DNA from: Bacteroidota bacterium
Lineage (GTDB): Bacteria > Bacteroidota > Bacteroidia > B-17B0 > Aurantibacillaceae
Direction of reading: 5' to 3'
Length of the DNA: 64,000 nt
Assembly: GCA_025363015.1 (NCBI GenBank)
Contig: JANYEQ010000006.1
Span: 62,001-126,000 of the forward strand
A program made the position numbers and the translations under genes. Of this stretch, positions 16,825 through 23,756 are shown piece after piece (the first letter of the stretch is position 1; each line of letters starts with the position of its first letter). The notes beneath the pieces are model-generated. The model worked only from the letters and a program-made list of their open reading frames with translations. It did no database searches and was not told where the DNA came from.

Positions 16825-18219
16825 ATGAAAATAAATATTTATTTTATATTTAGTGGTTTAGTTTTTATTCTGTTTTCTTGTTCTCAAGAGGGTAATCAAG
16901 AAAAAAAGAAGGGTTTAGTTATAGAACCAATTACCTGGAGCCAACACATTGCGCCTATTATTTTTAAAAACTGCAGTCCTTGTCATCGCCCTGGTCAAAG
17001 TGGTCCGTTTAATTTATTGAGTTATACCGATGCCATTAAAAAAGCAAAACTTATAAAATTTGTTACGCAAACCCGCTATATGCCCCCGTGGCCGGCGGAT
17101 GCCAACTATTCGCACTTTGTAGGCGAAAAAGTATTAACAAACACAGAGATTGAATTAATTAAAAATTGGGTTAATAGCGGTTTGCTACTTGGCGATAGTA
17201 TAAAGCAACCACCTGTGCCAATATTTTATAACGGTTCTGGGCTTGGCAAACCTGATTTGGTAATTAAAGCCCAAAAAGCCTATCAAATAAAGGCTAACGG
17301 CACAGATGCTTTTTTAATTATGAAATTCCCTTACCAAATTAGTAGCGATACCTTACTTGATTTTGTAGAATTTGTACCCAACCAACGTAAATTAGTACAT
17401 CATGTAAACGGCCATTTAATTAGTTATGATGAAAATAGAAATTTTAATTATATGAATGGTGAATCAATTTCAATTGATACTAAATCTCAGTTAGTAGACG
17501 TGTACAAAAACATGCACATTCCCTATACCGATAATTTACAGCCACAATTCCCAACCCTTACACCTAATGTTGTATATTATTTGCCAGGTTATATTCCGCC
17601 AAACTATCCAAAGGAATTGGGTGGTTACCGTTTAAAAAAACATGGTGCATTTTTGTTAAACAATATACATTATGGGCCAAGCAACAAGGTTTTGTTAGAT
17701 AGCAGCTACCTGAATGTGTTTTATCGTAAATCGCCTATTGAACGCCCTGTAATAGAAAGCCAACTAGGCACCTTTGGAATTTCAAAAATTGAACCTGAAT
17801 TTATTATTCCACCCAACCAAATAAAAACATTTACAACACAAACAAAATTAAGCAAAGCTATTTCGTTACTATCTATTAACCCACACATGCATTTAATTGG
17901 CAGAACCTTTTGGGCTTTTGCATTAACGCCTCATGGCGATACCATTCCACTTATAAAAATAAATAAATGGGATTTTAGATGGCAATATTACTATACTTTT
18001 TTACACCCTATTAAATTAGAAGTTGGCACTATTATAAAAGCAATTGGTAGTTTTGATAATACCACTAAAAATCCAAACAACCCCTATCATCCGCCACAAG
18101 TAATTACACAAGGTAATGGTGTGGAAAGTATGAAAACAACTGAAGAAATGTTTCAGTTTATTTTTACATACGTATTGTATAAAGAAGGGGATGAAAAAAT
18201 TAATTTAGAAAAAAAATAA
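16825..18219 (+). CDS. Lipoprotein with cytochrome c motif and PHM-like copper monooxygenase domain
   Basis: A 464-residue lipoprotein with lipobox LFSC (Cys19). An N-terminal haem-attachment motif CSPCH at 50-54 is followed by the conserved MPPWPAD of the family. The remainder resembles the copper type II ascorbate-dependent (peptidylglycine-hydroxylating, PHM-like) monooxygenase fold. It has a His pair at 192-193 (LVHHVN), HMH at 354-356 (NPHMHL) and a candidate Met ligand at 442 (TEEMF), corresponding to the CuH and CuM sites. Haem c plus copper suggests direct electron delivery to an oxidative reaction, but no substrate is known for these bacterial proteins. A paralogue with a T9SS tail lies at 44545-46125. 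Its stop is next to mqnA, which is convergent. Confidence 0.8.
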   Translation: MKINIYFIFSGLVFILFSCSQEGNQEKKKGLVIEPITWSQHIAPIIFKNCSPCHRPGQSGPFNLLSYTDAIKKAKLIKFVTQTRYMPPWPADANYSHFVGEKVLTNTEIELIKNWVNSGLLLGDSIKQPPVPIFYNGSGLGKPDLVIKAQKAYQIKANGTDAFLIMKFPYQISSDTLLDFVEFVPNQRKLVHHVNGHLISYDENRNFNYMNGESISIDTKSQLVDVYKNMHIPYTDNLQPQFPTLTPNVVYYLPGYIPPNYPKELGGYRLKKHGAFLLNNIHYGPSNKVLLDSSYLNVFYRKSPIERPVIESQLGTFGISKIEPEFIIPPNQIKTFTTQTKLSKAISLLSINPHMHLIGRTFWAFALTPHGDTIPLIKINKWDFRWQYYYTFLHPIKLEVGTIIKAIGSFDNTTKNPNNPYHPPQVITQGNGVESMKTTEEMFQFIFTYVLYKEGDEKINLEKK

Positions 18220-19493: not shown

Positions 19494-19630
19494 AATTGTA
19501 AGTTTTTTGCCTCATTGTTAATCAAAAAAACGCATTTAAAAGTACTGTTTTATTACCTAATGTTATAAAAAATAAAACTTAAAGATTGCGCTCCACGTTA
19601 TAAAAAAACAAAAATACCCTTTTTTAGGTA

Positions 19631-19661
19631 TTGTACACGGTACATGAATCCAATAGTTTTG
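19631..19661 (+). promoter_or_regulatory. Promoter with operator palindrome for the porin-Rieske-imelysin operon
   Basis: TTG (19631-19633), 20 bases, then TAGTTTTG (19654-19661) is a good Bacteroidota promoter. A palindrome TGTACACGGTACA (19632-19644; 5-bp arms, 3-bp centre) overlaps the -33 element, the position where a repressor would block polymerase. The -7 box ends only four bases before the ATG at 19666, so the mRNA is predicted to be leaderless or nearly so. Confidence 0.65.
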
Positions 19662-19665
19662 TATC

Positions 19666-20880
19666 ATGAAAATTGTAATTGCAACTTTATTAATTTATAC
19701 TTCTTTAAGCTCTTTTTCACAGGTAATAACAAAGGAAGATTCGTTAAATGCTGGCTTAACTCCAAAAAATTCGCCTACTATACTCTCTGGTTATGGACAA
19801 GCTAAGGTAGAATATAATACACGAGAAAAAACTGGTGTGGCCAATTTAACACGCAATGTTTTGTTTTTTGGACATCGCTTTAGCGAAAAAATTTCGTTTT
19901 TTTCAGAATTAGAATTAGAAAACGCAAAAGTAACTGGTAGTAATCCTGAGGGTGAAATTAGTATGGAACAATTGTTTTTAAAATTTAATATTAATCGTAA
20001 TCATTATTTAACGGCGGGTTTAATAATACCACGAATTGGTATTATTAACGAAAACCACATGCCCACAACATTTCATAGTAACGATAGGCCCTTAGTCGAA
20101 ACTCTTATCATCCCTTCCACTTGGCGTGAATTAGGGATTAGTTTTTATGGTTTTTCATACAAAATACCTGGTTTAAATTATTCGTGTGCCATTTTAAATG
20201 GCTTAAACAGTAGCGGTTTTAAGACTGGCAGTGGCATTCGCGAGGGACGTTACGAAGGTAGTAATGCATCGGCATCAAACCTTGCTGTAACAGGCGCTTT
20301 ATTGTACTATTTGTATAATTTTAGAATTCAGGTATCCACCTATATTGGTGGTAGCGCTGGTTACAATAAGCGTATGGCCGATAGTTTACAGTTAGATTAT
20401 GGCGCTTTTGGTACACCTATTATGTTAAACGAATTTAATATACAATATTTTAGCAAGGGCTTTGAGTTTAAAGCTTTAGCCTCATATTTATCAATACCTG
20501 ATGCCGCCCGCATTAATCGCGCTTTTGCAAACAACACGGCTAAGGCTATGCTAGGAGCTTATGGCGAAGTGGGTTATAATATTTTGAATTTATTTAACCA
20601 ACCTAAAAAACGATTAACAGCATTTGTTCGCTACGAATATTTAGATATGAATTATGAATTAGCAACTAACGGCGTAAACGATGATTTTATGAAACAGCAA
20701 TATATTACCACTGGATTACATTTTCAACCCACAGGAGGTGTTTCTGTTAAGTTAAATTATGTATGGCGTCAAACAGGTAACTTTAATCCAGCTTTATATA
20801 CTGTAAACCCTTTTGTAACGAGTGTGCCATTTTACACCACCAACAGTTTTGTTAATTTAGGAATAGGTTACGGATTTTAA
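19666..20880 (+). CDS. Outer-membrane porin-like beta-barrel protein
   Basis: A 404-residue exported protein with a signal peptide (cleavage after SSFSQ, about residue 19). The rest alternates polar and aromatic residues throughout and ends in VNLGIGYGF, a terminal Phe as in beta-barrel outer-membrane proteins. Segments such as FFSELELENAKV and YFSKGFEFKALASYL resemble phosphate-selective-porin (OprO/OprP-like) and related Bacteroidota porins. It is the first gene of a four-gene operon; its TAA overlaps the next ATG by one base (TAATG). The passenger is unknown. The downstream imelysin and di-heme protein suggest a metal ion or complex, by inference. Confidence 0.75.
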   Translation: MKIVIATLLIYTSLSSFSQVITKEDSLNAGLTPKNSPTILSGYGQAKVEYNTREKTGVANLTRNVLFFGHRFSEKISFFSELELENAKVTGSNPEGEISMEQLFLKFNINRNHYLTAGLIIPRIGIINENHMPTTFHSNDRPLVETLIIPSTWRELGISFYGFSYKIPGLNYSCAILNGLNSSGFKTGSGIREGRYEGSNASASNLAVTGALLYYLYNFRIQVSTYIGGSAGYNKRMADSLQLDYGAFGTPIMLNEFNIQYFSKGFEFKALASYLSIPDAARINRAFANNTAKAMLGAYGEVGYNILNLFNQPKKRLTAFVRYEYLDMNYELATNGVNDDFMKQQYITTGLHFQPTGGVSVKLNYVWRQTGNFNPALYTVNPFVTSVPFYTTNSFVNLGIGYGF

Positions 20881-21296
20881 TGCAACGACGAGAATTTATA
20901 AGAACAAGTTGTTTACTATGTGCAGGCTTGCTTATAGCACAACCTATATTACAAAGTTGTAGCACGGTACCTGTTTTAAAATTACAGGCTAAAAATGCTC
21001 AAATAATTGTAGATAAAGCAACCCTAAAACCTAATCAAAAGCTACACATTATACGTAACACAAAAATGGATTTTGATTTGCTTTTAGTTGAAAACGCAGA
21101 TGGGAGTTACCATGCACTTTATATGCAATGTACGCATTATAGCCAGCCTTTGGCGGCCAACAGCAAACAACTATTTTGTTCAGCACATGGTAGTGTTTTT
21201 AATTTTAACGGAGAGGTTTTAAAAAGTCCTGCCGAAAAAAATTTAACAAAGTATATAGTAGAACCTAGTGCTAATCAATTAATTATTAAACTTTAA
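20880..21296 (+). CDS. Rieske [2Fe-2S] lipoprotein with Tat-type signal
   Basis: A 138-residue protein. The N-terminus has a twin-arginine motif RREFIR, a hydrophobic core and a lipobox-like LQSC, so it is predicted to be exported folded by Tat and lipid-anchored. The Rieske cluster ligands are C84/H86 in CTHYSQ and C100/H103 in CSAHGS, with 13 residues between H86 and C100, near the lower limit for the family. The two extra cysteines that form the disulfide in bc1-type Rieske proteins are missing (Ser/Gln and Ser/Ala instead), so a lower potential is expected. It is translationally coupled to the porin gene and five bases ahead of the imelysin gene. Probably an electron carrier for the di-heme partner; no oxygenase is nearby. 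Confidence 0.85.
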   Translation: MQRREFIRTSCLLCAGLLIAQPILQSCSTVPVLKLQAKNAQIIVDKATLKPNQKLHIIRNTKMDFDLLLVENADGSYHALYMQCTHYSQPLAANSKQLFCSAHGSVFNFNGEVLKSPAEKNLTKYIVEPSANQLIIKL

Positions 21297-21301
21297 ATTT
21301 T

Positions 21302-22399
21302 ATGTCAAACATTTTTTGTAAATTATTTTTAGGTGTAATGATTTTTAGTTTTATAACTATTGCTTGTAAAAAATCTAAAAACAGTGCTATTGTAACTCTT
21401 AGCCCCGAAGAAAGTACGCAATTTTATAAATCTGTTTTAGCCGATTTATCGGCTAATGTGATTGTGAATACGTATAACGATTTAAAAGATAAATCTATTA
21501 TTTTTTATTTTAACTGTAAAACATTTTCTTTATCGCCAACTGCTTCCAACTTAAATATTTGTAAACAAAACTGGAAAGATGTGCGAAGTGCTTGGGAACA
21601 AGCCGAAGGATTTTTATTTGGCCCCGTAGTAATTGATAACGTTGACCCCCGCATTGACACCTGGCCAGTTAATTTTGTGAGGATAGATTCGGTTTTAAAC
21701 TCAAGCGCAATATATGATAGTACTTACATTGCGAGTTTAGAAGATGGCTTAAAAGGCTTTCACCCTATTGAATATTTATTGTTTGGCGCCAATGGTTTAA
21801 AAAACGAAACACAATTTACAGCTCGCGAAAAAGATTTATTAATTTCTTTATCCTTAAACTTAAATTATTTATGTGGCGATTTATACTCGAAATGGGACAT
21901 TACTAAGCCAAATAGTTACCATAATTATTTATCGCATGCAGGCAATAACAACAATGCTATATTTCCAAATTTAAAATCGGCTTACGACCAAATTTTAGAT
22001 GCTATGATTAGTATTTGCGATGAAGTACCAAATGGTAAAATAGCCGAACCATTTAACGCACAAAACCCTGCATTAGAAGAATCTCCGTTTGCAAAAAACT
22101 CGTTAGTTGATTTTACAAATAACATTAAAAGTGTTCAAAATATATATTTAGGTGCTTATGCATATACTGATGGCAAAGGCTTAGAAGATGTTATTAAACA
22201 AGGTAATTTAAGTATGGATGGTGTTATTAAACAAAAATTGTCTGCAGCCCTAACATCTTTAAATAACATTAGCATACCCTTTGGGCTGGCCATTAGTCAA
22301 CAACAAACACAAATACAAAATACCATTACAACAATTAACGATTTAAAAAACTATTTAGAAACAACTGTAAAACCTTATGTGCAAAGCTTGGTACAATAA
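21302..22399 (+). CDS. Imelysin-family (IrpA-like) lipoprotein
   Basis: A 365-residue lipoprotein (lipobox ITIAC) of the imelysin / M75 family, all-helical proteins related to the EfeO core and implicated in iron handling. The family GxHxxE motif is present as GFHPIE at 152-157, and the domain repeats with N-terminal YKSVLADL and a C-terminal helical half ending in a long final helix. Despite the peptidase name, the family is better supported as a metal-binding component than as a protease. Its last 23 bases overlap the start of the di-heme gene, so the two are translationally coupled. Confidence 0.85.
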   Translation: MSNIFCKLFLGVMIFSFITIACKKSKNSAIVTLSPEESTQFYKSVLADLSANVIVNTYNDLKDKSIIFYFNCKTFSLSPTASNLNICKQNWKDVRSAWEQAEGFLFGPVVIDNVDPRIDTWPVNFVRIDSVLNSSAIYDSTYIASLEDGLKGFHPIEYLLFGANGLKNETQFTAREKDLLISLSLNLNYLCGDLYSKWDITKPNSYHNYLSHAGNNNNAIFPNLKSAYDQILDAMISICDEVPNGKIAEPFNAQNPALEESPFAKNSLVDFTNNIKSVQNIYLGAYAYTDGKGLEDVIKQGNLSMDGVIKQKLSAALTSLNNISIPFGLAISQQQTQIQNTITTINDLKNYLETTVKPYVQSLVQ

Positions 22400-23756
22400 T
22401 ATAATATTTATTTTTTGTGTTTTGTTTTTATGCTTTTGCCGGAAAGCAGAAGAAATTAAAAACGAAGACGATTTAAACGACTGGTATAGTGGGGGTAAAC
22501 AAACAGTGTTTATTAATGGTAGCAATGCCTTTAGTCAATCGTTTAATGGCATGTCTGAATTAAAATTACAACAACACGAAATTGGCGATAAAGGTTTTGC
22601 TGCCGTTTTTAATAGCGATCCTAATCAATTAAATTATGGCTTAGGCCCTATTTTTAATAATGTTTCATGCGGTTCTTGCCACATAGGCGATGGCAGAGGA
22701 AAGGCTCCAAACATTGGAGAGCCTTTAAGTTCGTTATTATTAAGAATTAGTTCGGGTAACGATATAAATAATGGACCACAAGATGCACAAGGTTTTGGCG
22801 GACAATTACAACAACGTGCAATTTTAGGCACAAATGCCGAATGTATTATAACAGTTAATTATACCGAAAACGCTTTTCAATTTGCTGATGGAGAAACCTA
22901 TTCACTCAGAACGCCTGTTTATACTTTAAATAATCCCTATACTACATTGCCTGCTGGTTATTTAATTAGTGCGCGTATGGCCACACCCGTGTTTGGTTTG
23001 GGTTTATTAGAAGCAATAAGCGAAACCGATATTTTAAAAAATGCCGATGAGTTGGATGTAAATGGTGATGGCATTTCGGGCAAAGCAAACTATGGTTACA
23101 ACGTCATTGAAAATAAAAAACAGTTGGGGCGCTTTGGTTGGAAGGCAGCAATGCCAACAATTATACAACAATCAGCGGGTGCTTATAATCAAGATATGGG
23201 CGTAACAAATTTTATTTTTCCTATCGAGAGCAGTTATGGTCAACCGCAATACACTCTATCTAATGGTAAAAAAGATTTAGCCGATAGCACCTTAAGTGCC
23301 GTTGCTTTTTATATTAAAACCCTTGCTGTGCCAGGACGCAGAGATGCAAACAATGAAGAAGTAAAAAAAGGTAAAAATATATTTAAACAAATAGGTTGTG
23401 CCAAATGCCACATACAAACATTTATTACCCAAACCAATATGACAAGCCCCGAAACTAGTAACCAGCGTATTTTTCCTTATACAGATATGTTGGTACACGA
23501 TATGGGTAATGGCTTAGCCGATAACCGTAACGATTATAATGCCACTGGTAACGAATGGCGCACCTCACCTTTGTGGGGTATTGGCTTAACTAACATTGTA
23601 AATGGGCATAATAATTTTTTACACGATGGTAGGGCCAGAAATTTTATTGAAGCCATCATGTGGCACAGCGGAGAGGCCGATGCAACAAAAAATAATTTTA
23701 AAAATTTATCAAAAACCGAAAGAGATGCTGTTATTAAATTTTTAAACTCGTTGTAA
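22377..23756 (+). CDS. Di-heme oxidoreductase (DUF1111, cytochrome-c-peroxidase-like)
   Basis: A 459-residue lipoprotein (signal then lipobox FLCFC) with two haem c sites, CGSCH at 98-102 and CAKCH at 341-345. Between them is a long domain with FGLGLLEAI and ADELDVNGDGISGK, typical of the family called di-haem oxidoreductase or thiol oxidoreductase. Members are repeatedly found beside imelysins in Bacteroidota and Proteobacteria. The start ATG at 22377 lies inside the imelysin gene and gives a complete signal peptide. I infer a role in changing the redox state of a metal during uptake, with the Rieske protein as electron partner. It ends immediately beside the convergent Nudix gene. Confidence 0.87.
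   Translation: MCKAWYNNIIFIFCVLFLCFCRKAEEIKNEDDLNDWYSGGKQTVFINGSNAFSQSFNGMSELKLQQHEIGDKGFAAVFNSDPNQLNYGLGPIFNNVSCGSCHIGDGRGKAPNIGEPLSSLLLRISSGNDINNGPQDAQGFGGQLQQRAILGTNAECIITVNYTENAFQFADGETYSLRTPVYTLNNPYTTLPAGYLISARMATPVFGLGLLEAISETDILKNADELDVNGDGISGKANYGYNVIENKKQLGRFGWKAAMPTIIQQSAGAYNQDMGVTNFIFPIESSYGQPQYTLSNGKKDLADSTLSAVAFYIKTLAVPGRRDANNEEVKKGKNIFKQIGCAKCHIQTFITQTNMTSPETSNQRIFPYTDMLVHDMGNGLADNRNDYNATGNEWRTSPLWGIGLTNIVNGHNNFLHDGRARNFIEAIMWHSGEADATKNNFKNLSKTERDAVIKFLNSL

Follow-up and report, generated by a model that had tools for sequence, protein, structure and literature searches.

A porin-Rieske-imelysin-DHOR operon of Bacteroidota with a probable role in iron acquisition

We analysed a stretch of 64,000 nucleotides (the window; G000:C53:62001-126000) from a Bacteroidia genome, G000, of 3.3 Mb in 143 contigs. 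At positions 19666-23756 it holds four same-strand genes for a porin, a Rieske lipoprotein, an imelysin and a di-haem protein of the DHOR/DUF1111 family (open reading frame list and Pfam). The operon is real: chance is excluded because the same four-gene order is found in 21 other sampled Bacteroidia genomes, in mostly different flanks. Judging from sequence, the operon is conserved, its products carry lipoprotein and cofactor motifs, and there is a common promoter site with a fixed geometry. We think it quite probable that the function of the operon is iron acquisition. More specifically, there is about an even chance that it is an iron-starvation operon which supplies periplasmic iron to FeoB, with the Rieske protein and DHOR as a redox step.

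Gene order and the pairing of Rieske and porin

The four genes are the following:
19666..20880, + strand: outer-membrane porin; PF07396 just under the cut-off; predicted 16-strand barrel (AlphaFold and Foldseek)
20880..21296, + strand: Rieske [2Fe-2S] lipoprotein; PF00355, E 6e-11; twin-arginine signal RREF; lipobox Cys27
21302..22399, + strand: imelysin lipoprotein; PF09375, E 8.5e-47; GxHxxE motif GFHPIE at 21755-21772; PDB relatives 3n8u, 4ecg and 7xrx
22377..23756, + strand: di-haem DHOR/DUF1111 protein; PF06537, E 5e-107; CxxCH at 22668-22682 and 23397-23411

A first-pass annotation of this DNA had described them as a coupled set. All four reading frames indeed lie where it placed them, and Pfam or the predicted fold confirms their families. 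Its five-base gap (Rieske to imelysin) and its overlap (imelysin and DHOR, 23 nucleotides) were borne out, whereas the supposed one-base junction is an overlap of one base between the porin stop and the Rieske ATG (TAATG, 20878-20882).

Gene order was compared in 395 Bacteroidia genomes, using an orthologue cut-off of E <1e-50 and regions of up to 19 kb around each imelysin. This yielded 24 other clear orthologues of the window imelysin, 33-48% identical over the alignment and separated by a gap from the next imelysins (1e-27 at best). The order porin-Rieske-imelysin-DHOR, the comparative check proposed in the first-pass annotation, is kept in 22 of the 25 orthologues including the window; two of the remaining loci read porin-imelysin-DHOR and one has the imelysin without the other three. 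The flanks largely change from locus to locus, so selection appears to hold the four genes together. Pairwise divergences of the four proteins are correlated across 18 complete operons (Mantel r 0.54-0.84, 0/2000 permutations each, species history uncorrected).

A second sample, overlapping the first, consists of 80 loci from named genomes picked by similarity to the window imelysin, so its fractions describe this imelysin subfamily and not all imelysins. The Rieske gene is present at 67 of the 79 informative loci and absent from 12; one locus is cut by a contig end. These counts include a six-frame check, which alone recovered the Rieske of L203, L206 and L224. Operons with the matching porin type have a Rieske in 66 of 67 cases, those with another porin type in none of 11, and the window porin is 46-63% identical to the porins of most homologous operons. 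Since 11 of the 12 Rieske-less loci have a clearly different porin, the Rieske goes with one porin type. The earlier view of the Rieske as unusual for the cluster is therefore overturned: within this subfamily it is the norm.

Of the 30 top-scoring Rieske matches in the class, counting that of the window, 29 stand beside a porin: 17 together with imelysin and DHOR, nine with the porin only and three with DHOR. In our reading there is a porin-Rieske module and an imelysin-DHOR module, and the two are usually joined. A single-sequence search of the remaining imelysin loci in the window's genus, with flanks of about 1.5 kb, showed no Rieske.

Several loci deserve a separate remark. The Rieske-less loci with a different porin are from Latescibacterota, Gemmatimonadota, Myxococcaceae, Methylococcales, Saprospiraceae and other Bacteroidota metagenome-assembled genomes. 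Four Rieske-less porin-imelysin-DHOR operons from Latescibacterota and Gemmatimonadota (L246, L252, L260, L267) have a divergent gene of about 866-870 amino acids immediately upstream, a size compatible with a TonB-dependent receptor. L127 (the window's genus) and L128 (its family) show the order DHOR-Rieske-porin next to a DtxR-like gene, and their Rieske has an extra cysteine pair. At L113:9516-10566 (G418) the imelysin falls in two frames and is intact in the close relative L096, which indicates a frameshift or a sequencing error.

In the window itself the flanks are unrelated to the operon, with RibH and MqnA upstream and a NUDIX gene downstream, all on the opposite strand (Pfam). Beyond MqnA and RibH, at 16825-18219, lies a gene for a 464-amino-acid lipoprotein-like protein with a CSPCH haem motif and a weak, below cut-off match to Cytochrome_CBB3.

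A promoter site in common with feoAB

Three elements precede the porin gene:
19615..19633, + strand: 7-2-7 palindrome TACCCTTTTTTAGGTA plus TTG; candidate site for a NarL-type activator, running into the -33 element; matches the motif at 11 of 11 positions
19632..19644, no strand assigned: dyad TGTACACGGTACA between -33 and -7; the only such dyad in the window; its role is suggested by position only
19654..19661, + strand: Bacteroidota-type -7 element TAGTTTTG; exact TAnnTTTG match, 23 nucleotides after the palindrome

The palindrome (motif TACC-N8-GGTATTG) is perfect and was equalled in 0 of 2000 shuffles. We take it to be of the kind bound by NarL-family regulators. In most copies a TAnnTTTG -7 element follows 22-23 nucleotides after it, and with this fixed spacing the GGTATTG half would overlap the -33 element, the usual place of an activator. 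A sigma-70 promoter scan gave no excess (30 against 29 expected), as expected for a phylum with other promoters.

In 16 genomes the motif was found 101 times, against 31 hits for a reversed control pattern. Intergenic hits include feoA of G226, feoA of G082, an imelysin gene and the gene of the candidate regulator itself. A wider form, TACCYN6RGGTA, has 10 sites across the window's genome, against 5 for the control. One is the operon and another lies 45-60 nucleotides before feoA of FeoAB. At feoA the -7 element is TAACTTTA (5 of 6 positions) and the spacing is 23 nucleotides, as in the window. The chance of a random site in that 100-bp stretch is about 3e-4, for a stretch examined because of the feoA hits in G226 and G082. 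The operon therefore carries one mark of an iron-acquisition unit: its promoter site recurs in front of feoAB, an established iron importer encoded in its genome.

Fur-like boxes point in the same direction. We scored at least 13 of 16 positions of a slightly extended ATTTAGAATTATTCTAAAT, the Fur-box consensus proposed for Riemerella anatipestifer (PMC5609570), which was read before the promoters were examined. Such a box lies upstream of 21 of 34 homologous operons. Among control promoters taken from these loci the figure is 12 of 172, and several of the controls have a divergent promoter in common with the operon. For the named set, which overlaps these 34, the figures are 26/63 Rieske operons and 7/182 controls. 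In L192, L196 and L200 the box is located between the -33 and -7 elements, the usual position for a repressor; in the window the dyad TGTACACGGTACA occupies the place where several relatives have their Fur-like box. Elsewhere in the window's genome, a 15/16 Fur-like box (G000:C7:69695-69715, L288) is found about 160 nucleotides upstream of a succinate dehydrogenase cytochrome b gene.

The likely activator at the palindrome is a NarL/FixJ-type response regulator. Its gene sits immediately ahead of porin-Rieske in L093, L119 and L124 and close upstream in L121, and it adjoins HmuY genes in L092 and L115. The best match in the window's genome is 39% identical (G000:C129:46068-46724) and has a 14/16 Fur-like box, TGTTTAAAATTAGTCTAAATA, 7 nucleotides before its ATG. 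Because the genome shows no overall excess of Fur-like sites, the Fur link of this regulator rests on the position of the box. The regulators of L190:6066-6734 (G000:C129), L092, L093, L119, L121 and L124 have three conserved cysteines (KDC..., F(F/I/M)CGK(I/V) and the Cys of CDG/CEG/CAG), which suggest metal or redox sensing. We know of no description of such a three-cysteine NarL/FixJ-type family.

Iron-related neighbours are seen at some homologous loci. In L095 a DtxR-type gene, a DtxR/FeoA-domain gene and a split FeoB stand directly upstream on the same strand and end 77 nucleotides before the porin. FeoB and a DtxR-FeoA protein adjoin DHOR-Rieske-porin in L126, and HmuY with a TonB receptor lies alongside the operon in L092, L108, L120 and L122. 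Only 7 of the 80 named loci have HmuY, DtxR or FeoB in their fetched flanks, a count that serves as support only. The first-pass annotation had proposed a redox-linked metal unit. That the genes form one unit and are tied to a metal, specifically iron, is supported by the Fur-like boxes, the feoAB promoter site and the FeoB, DtxR and HmuY neighbours. Its grounds for rejection, a Rieske missing from most relatives or regulation unrelated to metals, had been set in advance, and the outcome favoured iron.

The same neighbours could be taken to mean that the metal is copper, manganese or haem instead of free iron, with iron regulation being indirect. HmuY/HmuR haem-uptake genes directly follow porin-Rieske on the same strand in L120 and L122, DtxR-family proteins could sense manganese, and EfeM binds copper and zinc besides iron (PMC9174327). 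We regard this as improbable, since the feoAB/feoA promoter site in three genomes and the Fur-like boxes point to iron.

The four proteins and the redox step

The porin scores 19.9 bits against Porin_O_P (PF07396), short of the gathering cut-off of 20.9. The AlphaFold model of its 404 residues is a 16-strand barrel (predicted local distance difference test score 83) and its Foldseek matches are general porins. An outer-membrane electron conduit of the MtrCAB type, for which a large barrel with a multi-haem cytochrome threaded through it would be expected, is ruled out by this general-porin fold and by the presence of only two haem motifs in DHOR.

The Rieske domain is assigned well above its cut-off (42.6 bits against 20.3), and the ligands Cys84, His86, Cys100 and His103 (CTH...CSAH) are invariant in 28 sequences. 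The twin-arginine export and lipoprotein anchoring claimed for it agree with the RREF motif and lipobox Cys27. Its signal peptide also contains a CxxC (residues 11-14, window 20910-20921) that is nearly invariant in the 28 homologues; it precedes Cys27, so that processing should remove it. Against the equivalog for respiratory (bc1/b6f) Rieske proteins the score is 26.9 bits with a cut-off of 97.4, Rieske proteins of the four-gene type miss the extra disulphide cysteine pair (CTHxxC/CxCH), and no cytochrome b is found among the genes neighbouring the operon. A complex III Rieske is ruled out on these three counts. Moreover, the window protein has Phe where bc1 proteins have Tyr. A Rieske without the extra pair and with Phe for Tyr suggests a potential below that of respiratory Rieske proteins, which would suit a reductant.

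Imelysin membership is equally clear (PF09375, 160.5 bits against 23.5), and this is the sole M75 protein of the genome. Across 24 sequences the Gly and Glu of GxHxxE are invariant and the His is kept in at least 90%. DHOR scores 358.8 bits (cut-off 22), has both CxxCH haem motifs invariant in 22 homologues and is, given an invariant Cys21, probably a lipoprotein.

Taking these parts together, the operon would be switched on when iron is short and would work with the FeoAB ferrous-iron importer. The porin may let iron or small iron complexes diffuse in, the imelysin lipoprotein would capture or position iron, and the Rieske and di-haem lipoproteins may pass electrons that turn Fe(III) into Fe(II), both path and direction being our proposal. 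FeoB, which takes Fe(II), would then carry it over the inner membrane. For regulation we propose that Fur controls the NarL/FixJ-type regulator, which in turn would bind the palindrome at 19615-19633 and the one before feoA. An assimilatory iron path whose redox step reduces Fe(III) seems simplest because a feoAB-type promoter site is combined with a channel, an imelysin and two envelope-anchored redox proteins. Reduction of Fe(III) is the direction we prefer for the redox step, at somewhat less than an even chance.

Several observations weigh against this proposal. The palindrome motif was derived from these same operons and also precedes other genes, for instance enolase and ThiL. No Fur-like box was found when the window promoter was searched, and the window's genome shows no excess of such sites (9 against 13 for the control). 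By fold DHOR is closer to di-haem peroxidases than to known ferric reductases, albeit in a weak match, and a Leptospira imelysin operon responds to peroxide as well (PMC7567364).

The last two points lead to the main rival, peroxide protection tied to iron uptake. Here DHOR would be a di-haem peroxidase fed by the Rieske, removing envelope H2O2 and so preventing Fenton chemistry with incoming Fe(II), while the imelysin binds iron. The DHOR model matches the di-haem cytochrome c peroxidase 1eb7 of P. aeruginosa with probability 0.99, but at E 2e-3 and template modelling scores of 0.31-0.43 the match is weak. Hydrazine synthase 5c2v chain C gave E 7e-5, and a sequence search of the PDB returned cytochrome c555 as the only match. 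Expression of the imelysin and 'thiol peroxidase' genes of Leptospira goes up with H2O2 and when perRA and perRB are both mutated; for the imelysins it goes up under iron limitation as well (PMC7567364, PMC8638851). Nonetheless, the promoter sites that the analysis covered, Fur-like boxes and the palindrome in common with feoAB, speak for iron supply, and the strict porin-Rieske pairing would be left unexplained. Peroxide protection is in our opinion unlikely, though it deserves the most attention among the alternatives.

It might also be argued that DHOR acts in the manner of MauG or MbnH and builds the metal site of the imelysin by oxidising one of its aromatic residues (Trp91 and Trp198 are invariant), the Rieske being its redox partner. 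The genes for imelysin and DHOR are neighbours at nearly all loci, six Trp are located close to the PIBO domain interface, and imelysin fusions to a peroxidase partner have been reported (PMC3143127). The match of DHOR to the NCBIfam MbnH family is far under the cut-off, however (18.6 against 362.85 bits), and the consulted descriptions of published imelysin structures report no modified residue. This makes such a role very improbable.

Known systems and meaning

The adjacency of imelysin and DUF1111, tied to iron and Fur, is known (PMC3143127). The ICMP/IrpA clusters described there (for example P. aeruginosa PA4370-PA4373) likewise have a GxHxxE imelysin adjoining a DUF1111 di-haem protein and a link to iron and Fur. 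They contain two imelysins, whereas the window operon has one imelysin plus a dedicated porin and a Rieske lipoprotein, neither of which is described for the P. aeruginosa type.

EfeUOB(M) resembles the operon in combining an M75 domain with a haem enzyme partner in an iron context. It differs in that the window operon has no EfeU or cupredoxin domain, and DHOR is a c-type protein with two CxxCH motifs instead of a DyP peroxidase. EfeB is labelled a DyP peroxidase in the abstract of PMC3577903 and DUF1111 in PMC3143127. Membership in EfeUOB was rejected, as Pfam shows no EfeU, cupredoxin domain or DyP-type EfeB among the operon proteins; EfeU was not searched in the rest of the genome. The operon might still capture iron by oxidation as in EfeOB: Fe(II) would enter by the porin and be oxidised by DHOR, electrons would leave through the Rieske, and the imelysin would hold Fe(III). 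One of the models considered for EfeUOB has the partner enzyme carry out oxidation ahead of M75 binding (PMC9174327). Such a scheme is quite unlikely, given that the operon lacks an Ftr1/EfeU or cupredoxin domain (Pfam) and that the co-regulated importer, FeoB, imports Fe(II).

FeoAB has a near-identical promoter palindrome and spacing in the same genome and adjoins homologues in L095 and L126. Unlike the operon it is an inner-membrane importer, and there is no Feo component among the four proteins. In Bizionia argentinensis the Rieske gene BZARG_RS03005, a cytochrome c gene with the neighbouring tag (BZARG_RS03000) and an imelysin-like gene fall together upon deletion of MliR, an iron-homeostasis regulator, and this Rieske was assigned by the authors to complex III (PMC9478572). 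A homology of these MliR-dependent genes to the window operon, or to the variant order DHOR-Rieske-porin (L126-L128), is no more than a lead. That paper was also the only one turned up by a literature search for imelysin and Rieske together, and no description of the four-gene operon was found in the open literature (subscription papers and preprints fell outside the search). What is probably new here is the joining of a Rieske and its matching porin to the known imelysin/DUF1111 iron cluster.

A connection of imelysin and DUF1111 proteins with iron has long been recognised, but there is no consensus on what they do biochemically. This compact and widely conserved operon, which nearly always adds a Rieske and a matching porin and has a FeoAB-type promoter site, turns 'iron-related' into a testable redox model, for which Chryseolinea, Mucilaginibacter, Chitinophaga and Pelobium are suited cultured hosts. 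The findings also suggest that an annotation as complex III should be avoided for free Rieske lipoproteins in genomes of this kind.

It is possible, though on balance doubtful, that many Bacteroidota possess a dedicated envelope pathway of ferric reduction that feeds FeoB. This pathway would be induced by the Fur-controlled three-cysteine NarL-type regulator, possibly an iron or redox sensor, activating both feoAB and the operon from the same -33 palindrome. If true, this would mean a specific Bacteroidota route linking outer-membrane iron entry to Feo, plus an iron regulator beyond Fur.

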